A DNA stretch of 64,000 bases, from NCBI RefSeq assembly GCF_020382885.2, contig NC_058508.1, forward strand, positions 5,200,055-5,264,054, given 5' to 3'. The translations under genes and the position numbers were made by a program. The stretch comes from Scatophagus argus (Eukaryota > Chordata > Actinopteri > Scatophagidae). The notes under the pieces were generated by a model, which had not been told where the DNA came from, did no database searches, and worked only from the letters and a program-made list of their open reading frames with translations. This document shows, one piece after another, positions 1 through 16,197 of the stretch. The number at the start of each line of letters is the position of its first letter. Positions within the stretch are counted from its first letter, which is position 1.

Positions 1-1030
1 ACATGACATTTCAATGTGACAAAGAAAACTTCCGTTCTATCATTTTTCCTAGTCTTTTTATCCCTCCCACAATCCCCTCCCAAAAGGGAACAGTTCTCAC
101 TGTACATCCGATGTAAACAGTACCGAATACATACAACAAACACATAAATAAGGGAGGACAAAAAAATGAATAAATAAATAAATAAAGGGGGGCTCAGTCA
201 ACTCAGTTAGGCAGAGATGTCAAAGAAAAATCTGAGCTTTTCAAGTCTAATGGACAGTAACACCTCTTTCACCCACCTGTTATAAGATGGAGCTTGAGAG
301 TGTTTCCAATTGAAGAGTATGAGTCGCCTCGCCAACAGGGTGGTGAAGGCAACAGGGTACAAGGCTGCAGGGGGGTACCAAACAAAGCCAAGAGAGGTTC
401 AAGAGAAATAGTCGTATTATATGCTATGCTAAGAGTTTTGAAGATATCAGTCCAGAATGTGGCAAGCCTGGGACAGAACCAAAACATATGGGAGTGGATG
501 GCTGGAGATTGTTTCCACCTGTTACATAAGTCAGTCACATTGGGATAGACCCAAGATAGCCTCAAATTAGTGTAGTGAACTTTGTGAACAACTTTGCACT
601 GCAGGAGGCCGTGCCTCGCACAGATTGAAGAAGTATGAACCAACTGTAAAAACTGTTGCCAATAATCACCAGGCAGTGTGAAGCCGAGCTCACCCTGGGG
701 TGTCAATGGCAGAATTAATAAGGCTGTAAATGCAAGAAATTTGTCGCTTTTGTTCAGGATCAAGAGCCAATAACGAGTCCACCAGAGTTTCTGGGGGTGG
801 CGAGGGAATACAGGATTATGGTTCTGAACAAAATATCTTCTGAAAAAATCGTCTGAAAAAAAGGGAAAAGGTGGGATTTAGACAAGTCAAATTTCTTTGA
901 GAACTCAGAAAAGGACATAAAAGTCCCTTGTTTGTAAAGGTCCTTAAATTTAGTTATCCCTTTGTCAAACCAAGTCCAAAAGCTTAAAAAGTGCAAGAGA
1001 GCATAAGTAGGTGATTGTTTACTGTACAGT
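1..1030 (-). mobile_element. L1-like non-LTR retrotransposon, 3' end of ORF2 (degenerate)
   Basis: Read on the minus strand, about 1030 down to 269 encodes the C-terminal part of an L1-clade ORF2 protein. It includes a stretch with FWTWFDKGI near 960-990 and, further down, the HMFWFCPRLATFW cysteine/histidine block near 460-500 that is typical of the region after the reverse transcriptase domain. The frame breaks near 760-790 (two overlapping open frames), so the copy is dead. Positions 1-268 would be its 3' UTR, with an A/T-rich (AATA)n stretch at about 163-187. The reverse transcriptase and endonuclease domains are not in the window. The exact L1 subfamily is not determined. Confidence 0.75.
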
Positions 1031-1432
1031 GTTTATTTGAAAACTGGTCATTTATAACTCGTCTTGTTGTTGAAACTGATTTACACACTTGCTTAGTACT
1101 CTATGATCTCTACTCTCTGATCTTGTGAATTGCCAAAAGTGAATTTCCCCGCAGAGTGGGGAAAAACTTTATTACACAGGTGTTGGATATTAGACATCAG
1201 GTTTTCACAATCCTCCTTCCTTTCTGCAAGTTAAACGCTGACACACGCATGTAACGTGTAAGACAACACAGTCTTGTACTACGGTTTGTGCCAAAGCGTC
1301 CCCGCTGCTTTTACGCACGGACCAGGAGCGCTGTAATGTGTACAAACCAGCGCCGCGTGTTCAGTCAAACACTCAGCACCAAACATCGACAGAGAGTCCC
1401 CAGTACAGATGAATCGTCAGTGACATTCAGGA

Positions 1433-1776
1433 GCTCCGTGTCCGTTGAATGGACGGCGCGCCTCCGGTGCCAAACACTAAATGCTCCGTGCGCCCTGAGC
1501 TCCTCTCACGGCTCTGATTCCGCCTCCCTTGTCAGAGGCGCAGCACCTGTAGATCGAAATATTAACCGAGATTTGCTCTGGTTCCCTTGGCTGCATTTTC
1601 CGGCTTTCCCGAAGCCGAGAATGCAGAAATGAACTCCTCCCCCCGCGTCAGACGAGAACCGAAATTTTACTCCTCATATTGACGAGACCAAAGCACGAAC
1701 AACATGGGTACTCCACAACAACGACTCCCTCTGGCCTCTAACTATGGATGTTGTCAGCGAAACAATCACCGTGACA
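1433..1776. repeat. Half-repeat A inside unit 1
   Basis: Diverged direct duplicate of 2062-2404, offset 628-629 bp. Shared landmarks are GCTCCGTGTCCGTTGAATGG at the left and CTCTGGCCTCTAACT plus GTCAGYGAAACAATC at the right. It includes the segment ending in GAATGCAGAAATGAACTCC that is missing from half-repeat A of every other unit. Confidence 0.9.
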
Positions 1777-2061
1777 CTGCAGCGGGGACTGAGGTCTCTC
1801 CGGGATCTCATCTCTCGGTTTCATGTACAGTGCGGCTATGAGGAGCCTCACGGGCTGGTCGTTAACTTTACCTTTGGCAGACAGCGAGTAGCTGTCATTT
1901 CCATCACGAGGCTGCTGATGGCGATATTCAACATCGACGGAGCCGAGTAGCAGAGTGTATGGCGCTTAAGCGGGCCATGAGAGCTGCTTCCTCAACCTGA
2001 ATCTCGTCCGAGTCCTTCATGAAACAGTCGCAGTGGGGAAGGCGAGGACTCCGAGGCAGCA

Positions 2062-2404
2062 GCTCCGTGTCCGTTGAATGGACGGCACGCCTCCAGTGCC
2101 AAACACTAAATGCTCCGTGCGCCCTGAACTCCTCTCACGGCTCTGATTCCGCCTCCCTCGTCAGAACGGCGCAGGACCTGCTGATCGAAATGTTAACCGA
2201 GATTTGCTCTGGCTGCCTTGGCTGTCCTCTTCCGGTTTTCCCGAAGCCGAGAATGCAGAAATGAACTCCTCCCCCCGCGTCAGACGAGAACCGAAATTTA
2301 CTCTATTACCGGAAATTGAAGCATAAAGAACACGGGCACTCCACAGCAAGGACTCTCTCTGGCCTCTAACTGTGGAAGTTGTCAGTGAAACAATCCTCGC
2401 GACA
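2062..2404. repeat. Half-repeat B inside unit 1
   Basis: Partner of the A copy at 1433-1776. It is retained intact in all nine units and begins with the same GCTCCGTGTCCGTTGAATGG. The B copy is far more similar between units than A is to B, so the internal duplication is older than the amplification of the array. Confidence 0.9.
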
Positions 2405-3165
2405 AGTGGAACACAAACAGAGGAAAATGCATGCGGATGACAATGAGAATCGAGCACCTTGTCTGTCACTGTGTCAATAAAGAGAATAAATATTTCTGCC
2501 AATATTGCTCTGTTGTTGTGCTTTATTTTCTCAAGGAGAACACATCCTGGATCTTCCATTAAACCATTTCACTGATCTGTTGTCGTTTTCATTCAGCGCA
2601 GAACATATTGGCTTTAATAGTACACAAACAGAAATCTCTATATGTGTGTGAATATTCTCATTTAAACTGTATGTCGCGGGGGAAATTCAGCTTTCCCAGA
2701 TGTCACACTCACATGATCATAATCCCGAAAACACACAGAGATGGAGCAGAAAAAACTTTATTACACAGGTGTTGGATATTAGACATCAGGTTTTCACAAT
2801 CCTCCTTCCTTTCTGCAAGTTAAACGCTGACACACGCATTTAACGTGTAAGACAACACAGTCTTCTACTGCGGTTTGTGCCAAAGCGTCCCCGCTGCTTT
2901 TACGCACGGACCAGGAGCGCTGTAATGTGTACAAACCAGCGCCGCGTATTCAGTCAAACACTCAGCACCAAACATAAAGAGGGAGTCCCCAGTACAGATG
3001 AATCGTCAGTGACAGCAGCAGCTCCGTGTCCAGTGAATGGACGGCACGCCTCCGGTGTCGAACACTAAATGCTCCGCGCGCCCTGAGCTCCTCTCACTGC
3101 TCTGCTTCCGCCTCCCTCGTCAGACGAGAGCCCAAATTTACTCTATTAACGAGACTTGAAGCATA

Positions 3166-3417
3166 ATGAACATGGGTACTCCACAGCAACGACTCCTCTG
3201 GCCTCTAACTATGGATGTTGTCAGCGAAACAATCACCGTGACACTGCAGCGGGGACTGAGGTCTCTCCGGGATCTCATCTCTCGGTTTCATGTACAGTGC
3301 GGCTATGAGGAGCCTCACGGGCTGGTCGTTAACTTTACCTTTGGCAGACAGCGAGTAGCTGTCATTTCCATCACGAGGCTGCTGATGGCGATATTCAACG
3401 TCGACGGAGCCGAGTAG
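3166..3417 (+). other. Array ORF, 83 codons (example from unit 2)
   Basis: An ATG-to-stop frame repeated in units 2-7 and 9; unit 8 is frameshifted and unit 1 is open only from a later ATG. The predicted product starts MNMGTPQQRLLW and ends FNVDGAE or FNIDGAE. I recognise no domain, signal peptide or membrane segment. The few between-unit changes include one conservative V/I change. The units are too similar to test for selection, so coding potential is unproven. Confidence 0.2.
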
Positions 3418-3627
3418 CAGAGTGTATGGCGCTTAAGCGGGCCATGAGAGCTGCTTCCTCAACCTGAATCTCGTCCGAGTCCTTCATGAAACAGTCGCAG
3501 TGGCGAAGGCGAGGACTCCGAGGCAGCAGCTCCGTGTCCGTTGAATGGACGGCACGCCTCCAGTGCCAAACACTAAATGCTCCGTGCGCCCTGAACTCCT
3601 CTCACGGCTCTGATTCCGCCTCCCTCG

Positions 3628-4026
3628 TCAGAACGGCGCAGGACCTGCTGATCGAAATGTTAACCGAGATTTGCTCTGGCTGCCTTGGCTGTCCTCTTCC
3701 GGTTTTCCCGAAGCCGAGAATGCAGAAATGAACTCCTCCCCCCGCGTCAGACGAGAACCGAAATTTACTCTATTACCGGAAATTGAAGCATAAAGAACAC
3801 GGGCACTCCACAGCAAGGACTCTCTCTGGCCTCTAACTGTGGAAGTTGTCAGTGAAACAATCCTCGCGACAAGTGGAACACAAACAGAGGAAAATGCATG
3901 CGGATGACAATGAGAATCGAGCACCTTGTCTGTCACTGTGTCAATAAAGAGAATAAATATTTCTGCCAATATTGCTCTGTTGTTGTGCTTTATTTTCTCA
4001 AGGAGAACACATCCTGGATCTTCCAT
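3628..4026 (-). other. Array ORF, 132 codons, minus strand (example from unit 2)
   Basis: The longest open frame in the unit, on the minus strand across half-repeat B and the AT-rich region. It is present with the same sequence in units 1-8 and as a 140-codon variant in unit 9 because of the 40-bp segment there. No family is recognised. It overlaps a plus-strand frame, and near-identity between units explains its persistence, so it may be chance. Confidence 0.15.
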
Positions 4027-4215
4027 TAAACCATTTCACTGATCTGTTGTCGTTTTCATTCAGCGCAGAACATATTGGCTTTAATAGTACACAAACAGAA
4101 ATCTCTATATGTGTGTGAATATTCTCATTTAAACTGTATGTCGCGGGGGAAATTCAGCTTTCCCAGATGTCACACTCACATGATCATAATCCCGAAAACA
4201 CACAGAGATGGAGCA

Positions 4216-5682
4216 GAAAAAACTTTATTACACAGGTGTTGGATATTAGACATCAGGTTTTCACAATCCTCCTTCCTTTCTGCAAGTTAAACGCTGACAC
4301 ACGCATGTAACGTGTAAGACAACACAGTCTTGTACTACGGTTTGTGCCAAAGCGTCCCCGCTGCTTTTACGCACGGACCAGGAGCGCCGTAATGTGTACA
4401 AACCAGCGCCGCGTGTTCAGTCAAACACTCAGCACCAAACATAAAGAGGGAGTCCCCAGTACAGATGAATCGTCTGTGACAGCAGCAGCTCCGTGTCCAG
4501 TGAATGGACGGCACGCCTCCGGTGTTGAACACTAAATGCTCCGCGCGCCCTGAGCTCCTCTCACTGCTCTGATTCCACCTCCCTCGTCAGACGAGAGCCC
4601 AAATTTACTCTATTAACGAGACTTGAAGCATAATGAACATGGGTACTCCACAGCAACGACTCCTCTGGCCTCTAACTATGGATGTTGTCAGCGAAACAAT
4701 CACCGTGACACTGCAGCGGGGACTGAGGTCTCTCCGGGATCTCATCTCTCGGTTTCATGTACAGTGCGGCTATGAGGAGCCTCACGGGCTGGTCGTTAAC
4801 TTTACCTTTGGCAGACAGCGAGTAGCTGTCATTTCCATCACGAGGCTGCTGATGGCGATATTCAACGTCGACGGAGCCGAGTAGCAGAGTGTATGGCGCT
4901 TAAGCGGGCCATGAGAGCTGCTTCCTCAACCTGAATCTCGTCCGAGTCCTTCATGAAACAGTCGCAGTGGCGAAGGCGAGGACTCCGAGGCAGCAGCTCC
5001 GTGTCCGTTGAATGGACGGCGCGCCTCCAGTGCCAAACACTAAATGCTCCGTGCGCCCTGAACTCCTCTCACGGCTCTGATTCCGCCTCCCTCGTCAGAA
5101 CGGCGCAGGACCTGCTGATCGAAATGTTAACCGAGATTTGCTCTGGCTGCCTTGGCTGTCCTCTTCCGGTTTTCCCGAAGCCGAGAATGCAGAAATGAAC
5201 TCCTCCCCCCGCGTCAGACGAGAACCGAAATTTACTCTATTACCGGAAATTGAAGCATAAAGAACACGGGCACTCCACAGCAAGGACTCTCTCTGGCCTC
5301 TAACTGTGGAAGTTGTCAGTGAAACAATCCTCGCGACAAGTGGAACACAAACAGAGGAAAATGCATGCGGATGACAATGAGAATCGAGCACCTTGTCTGT
5401 CACTGTGTCAATAAAGAGAATAAATATTTCTGCCAATATTGCTCTGTTGTTGTGCTTTATTTTCTCAAGGAGAACACATCCTGGATCTTCCATTAAACCA
5501 TTTCACTGATCTGTTGTCGTTTTCATTCAGCGCAGAACATATTGGCTTTAATAGTACACAAACAGAAATCTCTATATGTGTGTGAATATTCTCATTTAAA
5601 CTGTATGTCGCGGGGGAAATTCAGCTTTCCCAGATGTCACACTCACATGATCATAATCCCGAAAACACACAGAGATGGAGCA
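4216..5682. repeat. Macrosatellite unit 3
   Basis: This unit is 1467 bp. It has the GAGCGCCGTAATG (C) variant and the GTCGACGGAGCC variant, and is otherwise nearly the same as unit 2. Confidence 0.95.
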
Positions 5683-7149
5683 GAAAAAACTTTATTACAC
5701 AGGTGTTGGATATTAGACATCAGGTTTTCACAATCCTCCTTCCTTTCTGCAAGTTAAACGCTGACACACGCATGTAACGTGTAAGACAACACAGTCTTGT
5801 ACTACGGTTTGTGCCAAAGCGTCCCCGCTGCTTTTACGCACGGACCAGGAGCGCCGTAATGTGTACAAACCAGCGCCGCGTGTTCAGTCAAACACTCAGC
5901 ACCAAACATAAAGAGGGAGTCCCCAGTACAGATGAATCGTCTGTGACAGCAGCAGCTCCGTGTCCAGTGAATGGACGGCACGCCTCCGGTGTTGAACACT
6001 AAATGCTCCGCGCGCCCTGAGCTCCTCTCACTGCTCTGATTCCACCTCCCTCGTCAGACGAGAGCCCAAATTTACTCTATTAACGAGACTTGAAGCATAA
6101 TGAACATGGGTACTCCACAGCAACGACTCCTCTGGCCTCTAACTATGGATGTTGTCAGCGAAACAATCACCGTGACACTGCAGCGGGGACTGAGGTCTCT
6201 CCGGGATCTCATCTCTCGGTTTCATGTACAGTGCGGCTATGAGGAGCCTCACGGGCTGGTCGTTAACTTTACCTTTGGCAGACAGCGAGTAGCTGTCATT
6301 TCCATCACGAGGCTGCTGATGGCGATATTCAACATCGACGGAGCCGAGTAGCAGAGTGTATGGCGCTTAAGCGGGCCATGAGAGCTGCTTCCTCAACCTG
6401 AATCTCGTCCGAGTCCTTCATGAAACAGTCGCAGTGGGGAAGGCGAGGACTCCGAGGCAGCAGCTCCGTGTCCGTTGAATGGACGGCGCGCCTCCAGTGC
6501 CAAACCCTAAATGCTCCGTGCGCCCTGGACTCCTCTCACGGCTCTGATTCCGCCTCCCTCGTCAGAACGGCGCAGGACCTGCTGATCGAAATGTTAACCG
6601 AGATTTGCTCTGGCTGCCTTGGCTGTCCTCTTCCGGTTTTCCCGAAGCCGAGAATGCAGAAATGAACTCCTCCCCCCGCGTCAGACGAGAACCGAAATTT
6701 ACTCTATTACCGGAAATTGAAGCATAAAGAACACGGGCACTCCACAGCAAGGACTCTCTCTGGCCTCTAACTGTGGAAGTTGTCAGTGAAACAATCCTCG
6801 CGACAAGTGGAACACAAACAGAGGAAAATGCATGCGGATGACAATGAGAATCGAGCACCTTGTCTGTCACTGTGTCAATAAAGAGAATAAATATTTCTGC
6901 CAATATTGCTCTGTTGTTGTGCTTTATTTTCTCAAGGAGAACACATCCTGGATCTTCCATTAAACCATTTCACTGATCTGTTGTCGTTTTCATTCAGCGC
7001 AGAACATATTGGCTTTAATAGTACACAAACAGAAATCTCTATATGTGTGTGAATATTCTCATTTAAACTGTATGTCGCGGGGGAAATTCAGCTTTCCCAG
7101 ATGTCACACTCACATGATCATAATCCCGAAAACACACAGAGATGGAGCA
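5683..7149. repeat. Macrosatellite unit 4
   Basis: This unit is 1467 bp. It has the GAGCGCCGTAATG variant, ATCGACGGAGCC, and the CCCTGGACTCC variant near 6524, a marker it shares only with unit 6. Confidence 0.95.
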
Positions 7150-8616
7150 GAAAAAACTTTATTACACAGGTGTTGGATATTAGACATCAGGTTTTCACAA
7201 TCCTCCTTCCTTTCTGCAAGTTAAACGCTGACACACGCATGTAACGTGTAAGACAACACAGTCTTGTACTACGGTTTGTGCCAAAGCGTCCCCGCTGCTT
7301 TTACGCACGGACCAGGAGCGCTGTAATGTGTACAAACCAGCGCCGCGTGTTCAGTCAAACACTCAGCACCAAACATAAAGAGGGAGTCCCCAGTACAGAT
7401 GAATCGTCTGTGACAGCAGCAGCTCCGTGTCCAGTGAATGGACGGCACGCCTCCGGTGTTGAACACTAAATGCTCCGCGCGCCCTGAGCTCCTCTCACTG
7501 CTCTGATTCCACCTCCCTCGTCAGACGAGAGCCCAAATTTACTCTATTAACGAGACTTGAAGCATAATGAACATGGGTACTCCACAGCAACGACTCCTCT
7601 GGCCTCTAACTATGGATGTTGTCAGCGAAACAATCACCGTGACACTGCAGCGGGGACTGAGGTCTCTCCGGGATCTCATCTCTCGGTTTCATGTACAGTG
7701 CGGCTATGAGGAGCCTCACGGGCTGGTCGTTAACTTTACCTTTGGCAGACAGCGAGTAGCTGTCATTTCCATCACGAGGCTGCTGATGGCGATATTCAAC
7801 ATCGACGGAGCCGAGTAGCAGAGTGTATGGCGCTTAAGCGGGCCATGAGAGCTGCTTCCTCAACCTGAATCTCGTCCGAGTCCTTCATGAAACAGTCGCA
7901 GTGGGGAAGGCGAGGACTCCGAGGCAGCAGCTCCGTGTCCGTTGAATGGACGGCGCGCCTCCAGTGCCAAACCCTAAATGCTCCGTGCGCCCTGAACTCC
8001 TCTCACGGCTCTGATTCCGCCTCCCTCGTCAGAACGGCGCAGGACCTGCTGATCGAAATGTTAACCGAGATTTGCTCTGGCTGCCTTGGCTGTCCTCTTC
8101 CGGTTTTCCCGAAGCCGAGAATGCAGAAATGAACTCCTCCCCCCGCGTCAGACGAGAACCGAAATTTACTCTATTACCGGAAATTGAAGCATAAAGAACA
8201 CGGGCACTCCACAGCAAGGACTCTCTCTGGCCTCTAACTGTGGAAGTTGTCAGTGAAACAATCCTCGCGACAAGTGGAACACAAACAGAGGAAAATGCAT
8301 GCGGATGACAATGAGAATCGAGCACCTTGTCTGTCACTGTGTCAATAAAGAGAATAAATATTTCTGCCAATATTGCTCTGTTGTTGTGCTTTATTTTCTC
8401 AAGGAGAACACATCCTGGATCTTCCATTAAACCATTTCACTGATCTGTTGTCGTTTTCATTCAGCGCAGAACATATTGGCTTTAATAGTACACAAACAGA
8501 AATCTCTATATGTGTGTGAATATTCTCATTTAAACTGTATGTCGCGGGGGAAATTCAGCTTTCCCAGATGTCACACTCACATGATCATAATCCCGAAAAC
8601 ACACAGAGATGGAGCA
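7150..8616. repeat. Macrosatellite unit 5
   Basis: This unit is 1467 bp. It has the GAGCGCTGTAATG variant, shared with unit 7, and CCCTGAACTCC. Confidence 0.95.
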
Positions 8617-10083
8617 GAAAAAACTTTATTACACAGGTGTTGGATATTAGACATCAGGTTTTCACAATCCTCCTTCCTTTCTGCAAGTTAAACGCTGACA
8701 CACGCATGTAACGTGTAAGACAACACAGTCTTGTACTACGGTTTGTGCCAAAGCGTCCCCGCTGCTTTTACGCACGGACCAGGAGCGCCGTAATGTGTAC
8801 AAACCAGCGCCGCGTGTTCAGTCAAACACTCAGCACCAAACATAAAGAGGGAGTCCCCAGTACAGATGAATCGTCTGTGACAGCAGCAGCTCCGTGTCCA
8901 GTGAATGGACGGCACGCCTCCGGTGTTGAACACTAAATGCTCCGCGCGCCCTGAGCTCCTCTCACTGCTCTGATTCCACCTCCCTCGTCAGACGAGAGCC
9001 CAAATTTACTCTATTAACGAGACTTGAAGCATAATGAACATGGGTACTCCACAGCAACGACTCCTCTGGCCTCTAACTATGGATGTTGTCAGCGAAACAA
9101 TCACCGTGACACTGCAGCGGGGACTGAGGTCTCTCCGGGATCTCATCTCTCGGTTTCATGTACAGTGCGGCTATGAGGAGCCTCACGGGCTGGTCGTTAA
9201 CTTTACCTTTGGCAGACAGCGAGTAGCTGTCATTTCCATCACGAGGCTGCTGATGGCGATATTCAACATCGACGGAGCCGAGTAGCAGAGTGTATGGCGC
9301 TTAAGCGGGCCATGAGAGCTGCTTCCTCAACCTGAATCTCGTCCGAGTCCTTCATGAAACAGTCGCAGTGGGGAAGGCGAGGACTCCGAGGCAGCAGCTC
9401 CGTGTCCGTTGAATGGACGGCGCGCCTCCAGTGCCAAACCCTAAATGCTCCGTGCGCCCTGGACTCCTCTCACGGCTCTGATTCCGCCTCCCTCGTCAGA
9501 ACGGCGCAGGACCTGCTGATCGAAATGTTAACCGAGATTTGCTCTGGCTGCCTTGGCTGTCCTCTTCCGGTTTTCCCGAAGCCGAGAATGCAGAAATGAA
9601 CTCCTCCCCCCGCGTCAGACGAGAACCGAAATTTACTCTATTACCGGAAATTGAAGCATAAAGAACACGGGCACTCCACAGCAAGGACTCTCTCTGGCCT
9701 CTAACTGTGGAAGTTGTCAGTGAAACAATCCTCGCGACAAGTGGAACACAAACAGAGGAAAATGCATGCGGATGACAATGAGAATCGAGCACCTTGTCTG
9801 TCACTGTGTCAATAAAGAGAATAAATATTTCTGCCAATATTGCTCTGTTGTTGTGCTTTATTTTCTCAAGGAGAACACATCCTGGATCTTCCATTAAACC
9901 ATTTCACTGATCTGTTGTCGTTTTCATTCAGCGCAGAACATATTGGCTTTAATAGTACACAAACAGAAATCTCTATATGTGTGTGAATATTCTCATTTAA
10001 ACTGTATGTCGCGGGGGAAATTCAGCTTTCCCAGATGTCACACTCACATGATCATAATCCCGAAAACACACAGAGATGGAGCA
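8617..10083. repeat. Macrosatellite unit 6
   Basis: This unit is 1467 bp. It matches unit 4 at both the GAGCGCCGTAATG and CCCTGGACTCC markers, 2934 bp away. Confidence 0.95.
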
Positions 10084-11550
10084 GAAAAAACTTTATTACA
10101 CAGGTGTTGGATATTAGACATCAGGTTTTCACAATCCTCCTTCCTTTCTGCAAGTTAAACGCTGACACACGCATGTAACGTGTAAGACAACACAGTCTTG
10201 TACTACGGTTTGTGCCAAAGCGTCCCCGCTGCTTTTACGCACGGACCAGGAGCGCTGTAATGTGTACAAACCAGCGCCGCGTGTTCAGTCAAACACTCAG
10301 CACCAAACATAAAGAGGGAGTCCCCAGTACAGATGAATCGTCTGTGACAGCAGCAGCTCCGTGTCCAGTGAATGGACGGCACGCCTCCGGTGTTGAACAC
10401 TAAATGCTCCGCGCGCCCTGAGCTCCTCTCACTGCTCTGATTCCACCTCCCTCGTCAGACGAGAGCCCAAATTTACTCTATTAACGAGACTTGAAGCATA
10501 ATGAACATGGGTACTCCACAGCAACGACTCCTCTGGCCTCTAACTATGGATGTTGTCAGCGAAACAATCACCGTGACACTGCAGCGGGGACTGAGGTCTC
10601 TCCGGGATCTCATCTCTCGGTTTCATGTACAGTGCGGCTATGAGGAGCCTCACGGGCTGGTCCTTAACTTGACCTTTGGCAGACAGCGAGTAGCTGTCAT
10701 TTCCATCACGAGGCTGCTGATGGCGATATTCAACATCGACGGAGCCGAGTAGCAGAGTGTATGGCGCTTAAGCGGGCCATGAGAGCTGCTTCCTCAACCT
10801 GAATCTCGTCCGAGTCCTTCATGAAACGGTCGCAGTGGCGAAGGCGAGGACTCCGAGGCAGCAGCTCCGTGTCCGTTGAATGGACGGCGCGCCTCCAGTG
10901 CCAAACACTAAATGCTCCGTGCGCCCTGAACTCCTCTCACGGCTCTGATGCCGCCTCCCTCGTCAGAACGGCGCAGGACCTGCTGATCGAAATGTTAACC
11001 GAGATTTGCTCTGGCTGCCTTGGCTGTCCTCTTCCGGTTTTCCCGAAGCCGAGAATGCAGAAATGAACTCCTCCCCCCGCGTCAGACGAGAACCGAAATT
11101 TACTCTATTACCGGAAATTGAAGCATAAAGAACACGGGCACTCCACAGCAAGGACTCTCTCTGGCCTCTAACTGTGGAAGTTGTCAGTGAAACAATCCTC
11201 GCGACAAGTGGAACACAAACAGAGGAAAATGCATGCGGATGACAATGAGAATCGAGCACCTTGTCTGTCACTGTGTCAATAAAGAGAATAAATATTTCTG
11301 CCAATATTGCTCTGTTGTTGTGCTTTATTTTCTCAAGGAGAACACATCCTGGATCTTCCATTAAACCATTTCACTGATCTGTTGTCGTTTTCATTCAGCG
11401 CAGAACATATTGGCTTTAATAGTACACAAACAGAAATCTCTATATGTGTGTGAATATTCTCATTTAAACTGTATGTCGCGGGGGAAATTCAGCTTTCCCA
11501 GATGTCACACTCACATGATCATAATCCCGAAAACACACAGAGATGGAGCA
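10084..11550. repeat. Macrosatellite unit 7
   Basis: This unit is 1467 bp. It has the GAGCGCTGTAATG variant as in unit 5. From about 10660 it switches to markers shared with unit 8 (GGTCCTTAACTTGACC) and with units 8 and 9 (GATGCCGCC), a mosaic that suggests conversion or unequal exchange. Confidence 0.95.
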
Positions 11551-13018
11551 GAAAAAACTTTATTACACAGGTGTTGGATATTAGACATCAGGTTTTCACA
11601 ATCCTCCTTCCTTTCTGCAAGTTAAACGCTGACACACGCATGTAACGTGTAAGACAACACAGTCTTGTACTACGGTTTGTGCCAAAGCGTCCCCGCTGCT
11701 TTTACGCACGGACCAGGAGCGCCGTAATGTGTACAAACCAGCGCCGCGTGTTCAGTCAAACACTCAGCACCAAACATAAAGAGGGAGTCCCCAGTACAGA
11801 TGAATCGTCTGTGACAGCAGCAGCTCCGTGTCCAGTGAATGGACGGCACGCCTCCGGTGTTGAACACTAAATGCTCCGCGCGCCCTGAGCTCCTCTCACT
11901 GCTCTGATTCCACCTCCCTCGTCAGACGAGAGCCCAAATTTACTCTATTAACGAGACTTGAAGCATAATGAACATGGGTACTCCACAGCAACGACTCCTC
12001 TGGCCTCTAACTATGGATGTTGTCAGCGAAACAATCACCGTGACACTGCAGCGGGGACTGAGGTCTCTCCGGGATCTCATCTCTCGGTTTCATGTACAGT
12101 GCGGCTATGAGGAGCCTCACGGGCTGGTCCTTAACTTGACCTTTGGCAGCAGCGAGTAGCTGTCATTTCCATCACGAGGCTGCTGATGGCGATATTCAAC
12201 ATCGACGGAGCCGAGTAGCAGAGTGTATGGCGCTTAAGCGGGCCATGAGAGCTGCTTCCTCAACCTGAATCTCGTCCGAGTCCTTCATGAAAAACAGTCG
12301 CAGTGGCGAAGGCGAGGACTCCGAGGCAGCAGCTCCGTGTCCGTTGAATGGACGGCACGCCTCCAGTGCCAAACCCTAAATGCTCCGTGCGCCCTGAACT
12401 CCTCTCACGGCTCTGATGCCGCCTCCCTCGTCAGAACGGCGCAGGACCTGCTGATCGAAATGTTAACCGAGATTTGCTCTGGCTGCCTTGGCTGTCCTCT
12501 TCCGGTTTTCCCGAAGCCGAGAATGCAGAAATGAACTCCTCCCCCCGCGTCAGACGAGAACCGAAATTTACTCTATTACCGGAAATTGAAGCATAAAGAA
12601 CACGGGCACTCCACAGCAAGGACTCTCTCTGGCCTCTAACTGTGGAAGTTGTCAGTGAAACAATCCTCGCGACAAGTGGAACACAAACAGAGGAAAATGC
12701 ATGCGGATGACAATGAGAATCGAGCACCTTGTCTGTCACTGTGTCAATAAAGAGAATAAATATTTCTGCCAATATTGCTCTGTTGTTGTGCTTTATTTTC
12801 TCAAGGAGAACACATCCTGGATCTTCCATTAAACCATTTCACTGATCTGTTGTCGTTTTCATTCAGCGCAGAACATATTGGCTTTAATAGTACACAAACA
12901 GAAATCTCTATATGTGTGTGAATATTCTCATTTAAACTGTATGTCGCGGGGGAAATTCAGCTTTCCCAGATGTCACACTCACATGATCATAATCCCGAAA
13001 ACACACAGAGATGGAGCA
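11551..13018. repeat. Macrosatellite unit 8 (frameshifted)
   Basis: This unit is 1468 bp. A 1-bp deletion near 12150 (GGCAGCAGCG instead of GGCAGACAGCG) truncates the 83-codon plus-strand frame to 63 codons. A 2-bp insertion near 12290 (ATGAAAAACAG) follows. Confidence 0.95.
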
Positions 13019-14495
13019 GAAAAAACTTTATTACACAGGTGTTGGATATTAGACATCAGGTTTTCACAATCCTCCTTCCTTTCTGCAAGTTAAACGCTGA
13101 CACACGCATGTAACGTGTAAGACAACACAGTCTTGTACTACGGTTTGTGCCAAAGCGTCCCCGCTGCTTTAACGCACGGACCAGGAGCGCCGTAATGTGT
13201 ACAAACCAGCGCCGCGTGTTCAGTCAAACACTCAGCACCAAACATAAAGAGGGAGTCCCCAGTACAGATGAATCGTCTGTGACAGCAGCAGCTCCGTGTC
13301 CAGTGAATGGACGGCACGCCTCCGGTGTTGAACACTAAATGCTCCGCGCGCCCTGAGCTCCTCTCACTGCTCTGATTCCACCTCCCTCGTCAGACGAGAG
13401 CCCAAATTTACTCTATTAACGAGACTTGAAGCATAATGAACATGGGTACTCCACAGCAACGACTCCTCTGGCCTCTAACTATGGATGTTGTCAGCGAAAC
13501 AATCACCGTGACACTGCAGCGGGGACTGAGGTCTCTCCGGGATCTCATCTCTCGGTTTCATGTACAGTGCGGCTATGAGGAGCCTCACGGGCTGGTCGTT
13601 AACTTTACCTTTGGCAGACAGCGAGTAGCTGTCATTTCCATCACGAGGCTGCTGATGGCGATATTCAACGTCGACGGAGCCGAGTAGCAGAGTGTATGGC
13701 GCTTAAGCGGGCCATGAGAGCTGCTTCCTCAACCTGAATCTCGTCCGAGTCCTTCATGAAACGGTCGCAGTGGCGAAGGCGAGGACTCCGAGGCAGCAGC
13801 TCCGTGTCCGTTGAATGGACGGCGCGCCTCCAGTGCCAAACACTAAATGCTCCGTGCGCCCTGAACTCCTCTCACGGCTCTGATGCCGCCTCCCTCGTCA
13901 GAACGGCGCAGGACCTGCTGATCGAAATGTTAACCGAGATTTGCTCTGGCTGCCTTGGCTGTCCTCTTCCGGTTTTCCCGAAGCCGAGAATGCAGAAATG
14001 AACTCCTCCCCCAGCGTCAGACGAGAACCGAAATTTACTCTATTACCGGAAATTGAAGCATAAAGAACACGGGCACTCGACAGCAAGGACTCTCTCTGGC
14101 CTCTAACTATGGAAGTTGTCAGTGAAACAATCCTCGCGACAAGTGGAACACAAACAGAGGAAAATGCATGCGGATGACAATGAGAATCGAGCACCTTGTC
14201 TGTCACTGTGTCAATAAAGAGAATAAATATTTCTGGCAATATTGCTCTGTTGTTGTGCTTTATTTTCTCAAGGAGACCAGTGGGTTCACTGGCAAACACA
14301 AACGAAATCACTGGAGACACATCCTGGATCTTCCATTAAACCATTTCACTGATCTGTTGTCGTTCTTTCATTCAACGCAGAACATATTGGCTTTAATAGT
14401 ACACAAACAGAAATCTCTATATGTGTGTGAATATTCTCATTTAAACTGTATGTCGCGGGGGAAATTCAGCTTTCCCAGATGTCACACTCACATGA
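13019..14495. repeat. Macrosatellite unit 9 (right edge)
   Basis: Right edge copy. It contains a net 40-bp segment at about 14276-14316, between two GGAGA motifs, that is absent from every other unit. It also has several private substitutions (for example TTTAACGCACGG near 13169) and CTTTCATTCAACGC near 14365. Homology stops after CATGA at 14495. Confidence 0.93.
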
Positions 14496-15609
14496 GTTTT
14501 GAACAATAAATTCAAAATTTTGCGTGTGTGTGAGTGAGTGGGTGTTGTTGGACTTTACTTAAACTGTGTCCTGTTGTATGTTTTCTATAATAACTGGTAA
14601 AGTCTGATCACAGTCACTGCACGTCTGTAGCTGTATTCCTCTGACTGCATGTCTCATCCCATTTGAAGTAGTAAAATCAACAAAGCATTTTCAATAAGAG
14701 GTACTTAAAGTAAACAAAGTGAAGTATTTCTGCTTGTTTGGGATTCTAGTTTTAGTTACCCTGGGGGTCCATGTTTCCAATCGGTTTCTTCAGAAATTTG
14801 AGGAGTTTTGGGATGGTCAAAAGGAGAAAAAAACAACGTGATCTGTAAATCTGTATACATATTTTAGGCGTTTTTCAAATGTCATGACATCTGAAAGTTG
14901 ATTCAAATTCAAATCCAAATTCACAGTTTTCTTGTAAAGGTGAAAAAGCTGGGAACCACTAGTTTTAACTTCCACAACTTGTTGTGTATTATGAACTTGT
15001 GATTTATGGCTGAAGTGCTGCTGTCATGTAAAAGAAGTGGAGTAAAGAGGTGTAGTATCACTGTTCAGTATAGTGCAGTGGAAACATAAACCTAAAAGCA
15101 CCTCAAAACCTGGCTGCACTTGTATGTTCTTCATTACTTTTGACTTCATGTTCCACCACAAGATGACTTTCTGAAATGTCTGACAACACTGGCAGAGGTG
15201 ATCGTGTTTGTGAACAAGCCTGTACTTCCTCCTTGTGGTTGGACTGGGATACTGCACCAAGTCCGTCTGTCTGGTGGTCAAAGATTGCTGTGGCCTCACA
15301 AAACACAATTTAACTGCAACTCAAGGATCCATACATGAAATTCTAACAAAAATTTCATACATTTCAACGTCTAAATGTCCTCTCCTCTTCATCCTCTGCC
15401 CTCCTCTCCTCTTATCAAGTCAACATATGATCCATTATTTTATGTTGCTGTGTGTCCAGTTTTCCTCGTAGCTCTGTGTCTCTCCCTCCCTCTGTCGGTC
15501 TCTCTCCGTCCAGATCTACAAGCTGACCTTGATCTGGCCCTCTGACAAACCCAGTGTCTACTGTCAACATTTGCCCATGTCGTTCTTCTATGTAGTGCTA
15601 TTATAATTA
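14496..15609. other. Intergenic; short GT-rich stretch, no gene seen
   Basis: Directly right of the array there is a short GTGTGTGAGTGAGTG run (about 14523-14543). The motif GCTGGGAACCACTAG near 14949-14963 resembles the terminal repeat of small non-autonomous DNA transposons. No coding exon or RNA gene is recognised. Confidence 0.5.
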
Positions 15610-15876
15610 ACTTGAACAACATCCATCCATCCATCCATTTTCTATGCCGCTTATCCGTCAGGGTCGCGGGGGAGCTGGAGACTATCCCAGCTGACTACGC
15701 ATGTTTTTGGTATTGTGGGAGGAAGCCGGAGAACCTGGAGAAAACCCACGCATGCACAGGGAGAACATGCAAACTCCACATAGAAGGGCCCAGACTGGGA
15801 TTCAAACCTGGAACCCTCTTGCTATGAGGCGACAGTGCTAACCACTGCACCACCATGCCGCCCACTTGAACAACAT
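15610..15876 (-). mobile_element. tRNA-like SINE with 13-bp target-site duplication
   Basis: Read on the minus strand, the element starts GGGCGGCATGGTGGTGCAG and continues with an A-box-like TGGTTAGCACTG and a B-box-like GGTTTGAATCC, as in pol III promoters. It ends in the tail GGATGGATGGATG. The direct repeat ACTTGAACAACAT flanks it at 15610-15622 and 15864-15876, as expected of LINE-mediated insertion. This is an abundant teleost repeat type, here with an internal deletion; the family name is not assigned. Confidence 0.85.
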
Positions 15877-16014
15877 ATCAGCTAAAAATTTTCAGAATTC
15901 CAATTAAAACAACCTGTCATGTTGTGATGAATGATGCTTGCATGTATGTTTCTTTCCCTCTCTCTTTCACCCTCTCTGTCTTGTCTACCTCTTCTTCCTC
16001 CCCTTCACCCAGCC

Positions 16015-16197
16015 GACTATCGGCAGGATGGTTCTCCCTTGTGAGCTGGGTGCTGCTCGAGGTTTCTTCCTGTTAAAAGGGAGTTTTTCCTTGCTTGCTT
16101 GCTTTCCTTGGGTTCAGGCTCTGGGTTTCTATAAAGCACCTAGAAACAATTTTGATTTGAAAAGGTGCTATATAAATAAAATTGAGTTGAATTAATA
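16015..16197 (+). mobile_element. 3' tail of a teleost non-LTR retrotransposon
   Basis: The segment contains GGTTTCTTCCTGTTAAAAGG, GGGAGTTTTTCCTTGC, GGTGCTATATAAATAAAATT and a short GAGTTGAAT end. These are landmarks of a very common fish LINE 3' end. Clade assignment (L2 or RTE type) is from memory and uncertain. No coding part is present. Confidence 0.7.

Follow-up and report, generated by a model that had tools for sequence, protein, structure and literature searches.

Among tandemly repeated DNAs with units of kilobase size, the nearest known counterparts of the locus described here include a few human macrosatellites. The human macrosatellite NBL2 is described as having a 1.4-kb unit and as residing mainly on acrocentric short arms (PMC8122249). 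A second human example, DXZ4, is given as a CpG-rich 3-kb unit present in 12–100 copies (PMC8122249), and is reported to be CTCF-bound (PMC3491370). D4Z4, with a unit size of 3.3 kb (PMC8122249), is likewise described as CpG-rich (PMC7140823), and its unit encodes the DUX4 retrogene (PMC3616921). The macrosatellites that figure in the consulted portions of these papers are mostly human or other mammalian (PMC8122249, PMC3491370, PMC3616921, PMC7140823). Among the matches listed, which are open-licence PMC titles, no plain description of a fish macrosatellite of like kind appears, which is weak evidence of absence.

The window analyzed here, a stretch of 64,000 nucleotides from Scatophagus argus, contains at positions 1161–14495 an array of this class, a kilobase unit repeated head to tail. 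The account that we favor, and that we hold to be probable, is of a local macrosatellite, in which a segment of ~1.5 kb, rich in CpG and apparently non-coding, was duplicated internally and then multiplied, with exchange between the copies. What the analysis chiefly adds to an earlier sequence-only reading of this DNA is, first, the island-like CpG content with its CpG-biased differences and, second, poly(A)-type sites that point outward from the core of the unit. A gene-adjacent, CpG-rich fish array that is whole in one contig and readable at both edges would be a useful case for studying birth and homogenization, as well as for asking if macrosatellites generally combine CpG richness with methylation; were it merely drifting repeat DNA, it would have little importance beyond annotation.

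Layout of the array and its surroundings

A 20-mer spacing script, together with anchors, resolves the interval into nine head-to-tail units with a period of 1467 bp. The dominant 20-mer spacing is 1467, and six of the eight anchor spacings take exactly this value: the anchors lie at 1165, 2754, 4221, 5688, 7155, 8622, 10089, 11556 and 13024, spaced by 1589, then by 1467 six times, then by 1468. Repeated 20-mers are first seen in the 1101 bin and last in the 14401 bin of a table that covers to about 16,600. The array is missing from the Tandem Repeats Finder list because the longest period there is 500. The nine-unit array is not a product of chance, and both the number of units and the span proposed from the letters alone are borne out in the assembled sequence. 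The units, placed by the anchors and listed without strand, are as follows.

1161..2749: U1, edge unit, 1589 bp
2750..4216: U2, 1467 bp, second most divergent full unit
4217..5683: U3, 1467 bp, type unit for the analysis
5684..7150: U4, 1467 bp, equal to U6
7151..8617: U5, 1467 bp
8618..10084: U6, 1467 bp, equal to U4
10085..11551: U7, 1467 bp
11552..13019: U8, 1468 bp, one base shorter at one place and two bases longer at another
13020..14495: U9, edge unit, 1476 bp; 40 bases at about 14277–14316 are its own, and the last 33 bases are absent

Mis-assembly is frequent in high-identity tandem arrays, and the letter-for-letter equality of U4 and U6 is what one might expect if the array, or its copy number, were an artefact of assembly. 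Against this, the variant combinations differ from unit to unit, both edges are unlike the core, and unique flanks lie on either side. These features favor a real array, but not specifically the number nine, and we regard an artefact as very improbable.

To the right of the array lies a block of genes.

18272–63106: gene block, with tetraspanin, C2H2 zinc-finger, Rab3-like, DUF4149 (TMEM205-like) and calponin exons

Ten of the frames listed from this side were sent to Pfam, and E values of 0.01 or better were obtained for eight of them: tetraspanin twice, C2H2 zinc finger, Ras family twice, DUF4149 twice and calponin, one tetraspanin and one DUF4149 row being below the curated cut-off. The other two had no Pfam match. 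The best matches of the first Ras-family exon are Rab3 chains in the PDB. That the array sits at the edge of a gene-rich block, as had been suggested, is upheld by these matches. The block presumably corresponds, in a bony fish, to human 19p13.2 (RAB3D, TMEM205, ZNF653, SWSAP1, CNN1). Between array and genes, a CATC-rich stretch at about 15620–15860 and a second stretch at about 16010–16190 each presumably resemble dispersed fish repeats. The left flank (1–1130, minus strand) presumably resembles a LINE of the L1/Tx1 type in its 3' portion; its two longest frames gave no match in Pfam.

Differences between units and their reshuffling

Pairwise identities, in which gaps are left uncounted, are 99.45–100% among U3–U8, so the very high identity first noticed in the letters holds for the inner units; U5 departs from U4 and U6 at two sites. 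Identities fall to 98.74–99.32% for U2 against U3–U9, to 98.74–99.44% for U9 against U2–U8, and to 97.00–97.75% for U1 against every other unit. Ten indel differences separate the nine units, the large ones being 116 bases found only in U1, 40 bases found only in U9, and the final 33 bases, absent in U9 only. The edge units thus carry private blocks, and their remainder is core-like. Most of the divergence of U1 is concentrated in one block (alignment columns 227–568) that has one copy of an internal repeat, subrepeat A, inside it.

All four combinations of variants occur at 28 of the 78 pairs that can be formed from 13 informative sites. Because CpG sites mutate recurrently, this count may overstate exchange. 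Five of the 28 pairs (259–880, 702–948, 710–948, 880–948 and 948–991) draw solely on sites other than CpG transitions, and inter-unit exchange is for this reason the likely cause of the reshuffling. The units carry reshuffled variants, in the pattern expected of unequal exchange or gene conversion. Together with the near identity of the inner units, this supports the proposal that the array was recently amplified or is being homogenized.

An older duplication within the unit

Each unit contains an older direct duplication, which U1 shows over 353 columns of alignment at 87.8%. U3 shows it split into a piece of 138 columns (85.5%) and one of 110 columns (90%), since the 116 bases kept by U1 are absent from the core. 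The alignment of subrepeats A and B has gaps of 2, 1 and 4 bases.

4482..4710, plus strand: subrepeat A in U3, shorter here for want of the 116 bases kept in U1
4990..5338, plus strand: subrepeat B in U3, direct repeat of A (85.5–90% in two pieces)
1387..1727, no strand: block of U1 departing from the core (alignment columns 227–568), including the 116 U1-only bases at about 1530–1645

It is tempting to see the edge units as frozen ancestors of the array, and subrepeat B offers a comparison for U1. At the 39 ungapped differences between U1 and the core in the A block, B agrees with U1 at 17, with the core at 20 and with neither at 2, in an alignment that is doubtful near the 3' part. The U1-specific block is therefore a mosaic that favors neither form as the older, and the edge units are at most candidates for frozen ancestors.

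CpG content and CpG-biased change

CpG observed/expected is 0.84–0.92 across the array (119 sliding windows), compared with a mean of 0.36 and a maximum of 0.79 at 14,496–64,000 (481 windows). Within U3, a 1.13-kb core at 0.93 is set against an AT-rich tail at 0.55.

4217..5350, no strand: CpG-rich core of U3, CpG observed/expected 0.93, GC 0.53

The array has two to three times the CpG content of its surroundings, and its founder is therefore likely to have been derived from a CpG island or to have acted as one. The differences between units are themselves biased toward CpG. Six of the 11 transitions among U2–U9 fall at columns where one or more units have a CpG (166 of 1433 columns), which corresponds to an odds ratio of 9.5 and a one-sided Fisher p of 0.0006; the proportion is 4 of 5 in U3–U8 and 13 of 28 across all nine units. 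This pattern suggests a CpG-rich founder that may now be undergoing methylation-type mutation, with little time elapsed or much homogenization. The CpG-biased differences also argue against an array that is unmethylated at all times.

Does the unit encode a protein or a structured RNA?

One alternative takes each unit to be a gene, for a protein or a structured RNA, from a multi-copy family confined to this fish lineage, whose members stay similar through dosage selection. In its favor are frames open on either strand, more poly(A)-type sites than chance would give and the CpG-rich core. The frames themselves speak against it. The longest from stop to stop is of 135 aa, a length matched by 157 of 500 dinucleotide shuffles; this minus-strand frame stays uninterrupted in eight units of the nine, with a 145-aa frame in its place in U9. 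Five frames were traced across the nine units over fixed slices, and none of them is intact throughout: a frame shift or stop interrupts three of them only or partly in U8, one in U9, and one in U1 and U2. Two of the five are interrupted in no more than one unit, an outcome that recency alone would produce as well. Codons that vary in U2–U9 do so synonymously in 4 cases versus 19 non-synonymously (the frames overlap), so that synonymous changes are not in excess, and the A/B gaps are not multiples of three.

Pfam was searched with 20 frames, two from the left flank and 18 from the array, one of which extends 14 bases beyond the right edge. None of the 18 array frames reached the cut-off, and no homeobox, histone or other domain was found in them. 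Four weak rows (Phlebovirus_G1, E 0.057; Beta-prop_ACSF4, 0.059; YpoC, 0.16; Corona_NS12-7, 0.038) are far below cut-offs and are read as chance. With frames of chance length, disruptions, no coding constraint, A/B gaps that are not in threes and no Pfam match, a coding gene was rejected as the main reading. The open frames seen earlier on both strands are indeed present; being no longer than chance, they lend no support to a coding interpretation.

Searches for RNA genes were similarly empty. Rfam gave no match in the 64-kb window at gathering scores, and its covariance models, allowed E values to 5, matched neither U3 nor U1; ARAGORN, with bacterial settings, found no tRNA; and two folded stretches, with z values of 0.18 and 0.66, are no better than their shuffles (20 each) and show nothing unusual. 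An RNA gene of the rRNA, snRNA, 5S or miRNA-array type was rejected on these grounds, and the absence of an rRNA, snRNA or histone identity, already noted from the letters, is supported by Rfam and by the lack of a histone domain in the 18 frames. Overall, a multi-copy gene seems to us unlikely. A spliced or short-frame gene, or an unstructured RNA, may be compatible with the coding and RNA results.

Outward poly(A)-type sites and promoter motifs

The poly(A)-like signals of the sequence-only reading prove to exceed chance. U3 has four AATAAA hexamers, as opposed to 0.44 in shuffles, and three of them are followed by a GU-rich stretch (by the analysis's own definition of such a stretch), where the shuffle mean is 0.09 and only 1 of 500 shuffles reaches 3. 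Since two of the AATAAA share one GU-rich stretch, these amount to two independent poly(A)-type sites, not three.

4224..4229, minus strand: AATAAA then GU-rich stretch, left end of U3
5410..5424, plus strand: two AATAAA (5410, 5419) with one common GU-rich stretch, right of the U3 core

Both sites are directed outward from the CpG-rich core, as is expected if the core is transcribed both ways. A minus-strand AATAAA at 5461, opposite the plus-strand pair, is without a GU-rich stretch.

Promoter and boundary motifs were sought with consensus sequences. None of 11 promoter consensuses is clearly above shuffles in the unit: the ETS core occurs twice against 0.56 (34 of 300 shuffles are as high), and SP1, NRF1 and YY1 have no match there. 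A 12-base CTCF consensus, allowing one mismatch, has five matches in the window and none in the array, and a CTCF boundary was accordingly dropped as a candidate. With promoter motifs not clearly enriched and no CTCF-like match in the array, promoter and boundary readings are speculative, and the evidence for a putative promoter is composition and the poly(A)-type sites.

Origin of the unit

The CpG content of the array is foreign to its surroundings, and the left flank presumably resembles the end of a LINE (with no match in Pfam). On this basis the unit might derive from part of a transposable element or integrated virus, multiplied in tandem. There is no second copy in the window outside the array, the best matches of U1 there being of 11–19 bases (E up to 1), and inspection by eye finds no terminal repeats or target-site duplication at the edges. 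Three frames and one 27-letter pattern have no relative in viral contigs, one unit has none in phages, and the 27-letter pattern has none in prokaryote genomes. As these collections hold viruses and prokaryotes, the null searches bear only on a viral or contaminant origin, and a viral or prokaryotic source was rejected on their strength. An element or virus fragment is, in sum, an improbable origin for the unit.

A proposed history for the array

The local macrosatellite that we favor could have arisen as follows. An internal duplication of the segment would have given subrepeats A and B, now 88% alike; head-to-tail multiplication of the whole segment would have come later; and unequal crossing over, gene conversion or both would keep the inner units near-identical. 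The founder is envisaged as derived from, or behaving as, a CpG island that was presumably little methylated in the germline. The array would now be at least partly methylated, with its CpGs mutating fast, and the CpG content might persist either through youth, there having been too little time for decay, or through replenishment by exchange. Transcripts may run outward from the core on both strands and terminate at the two poly(A)-type sites.

As far as the letters can tell, no sequence-specific function is indicated, and the default expectation would be a drifting copy number. Given the CpG pattern and the outward-pointing poly(A)-type sites, the array may be transcribed and under epigenetic regulation. 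A bolder version, which we consider quite unlikely, takes the array as a bank of CpG-island promoters that is specific to the lineage and acts in both directions, each promoter bounded by its own outward poly(A) sites; the bank would give multi-copy non-coding transcripts in the germline or early embryo and set chromatin at the gene-block border, a functional counterpart in fish of DXZ4 or D4Z4 without shared ancestry.

Comparison with known tandem arrays

Vertebrate miR-430, snRNA, 5S and histone genes occur in arrays of tandem units of up to a few kilobases. The fish array is tandem as these are; it differs in having no Rfam match (U3, U1) and no histone domain.

Among macrosatellites, D4Z4 shares with it a CpG-rich tandem unit of kilobase size (PMC7140823), whereas the DUX4 retrogene described for D4Z4 (PMC3616921) has no homeobox counterpart in the 18 array frames given to Pfam. 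The resemblance to D4Z4 originally remarked upon thus extends to size class and CpG richness only, and not to a homeobox or any other domain. DXZ4, too, is described as a CpG-rich kilobase tandem unit (PMC8122249); it is reported as CTCF-bound (PMC3491370), whereas the fish array has no CTCF-like match in a consensus scan made without a full matrix. NBL2 is placed mainly on acrocentric short arms (PMC8122249), whereas the fish array adjoins genes; the two are alike, as far as description goes, in unit size and in macrosatellite class (PMC8122249).
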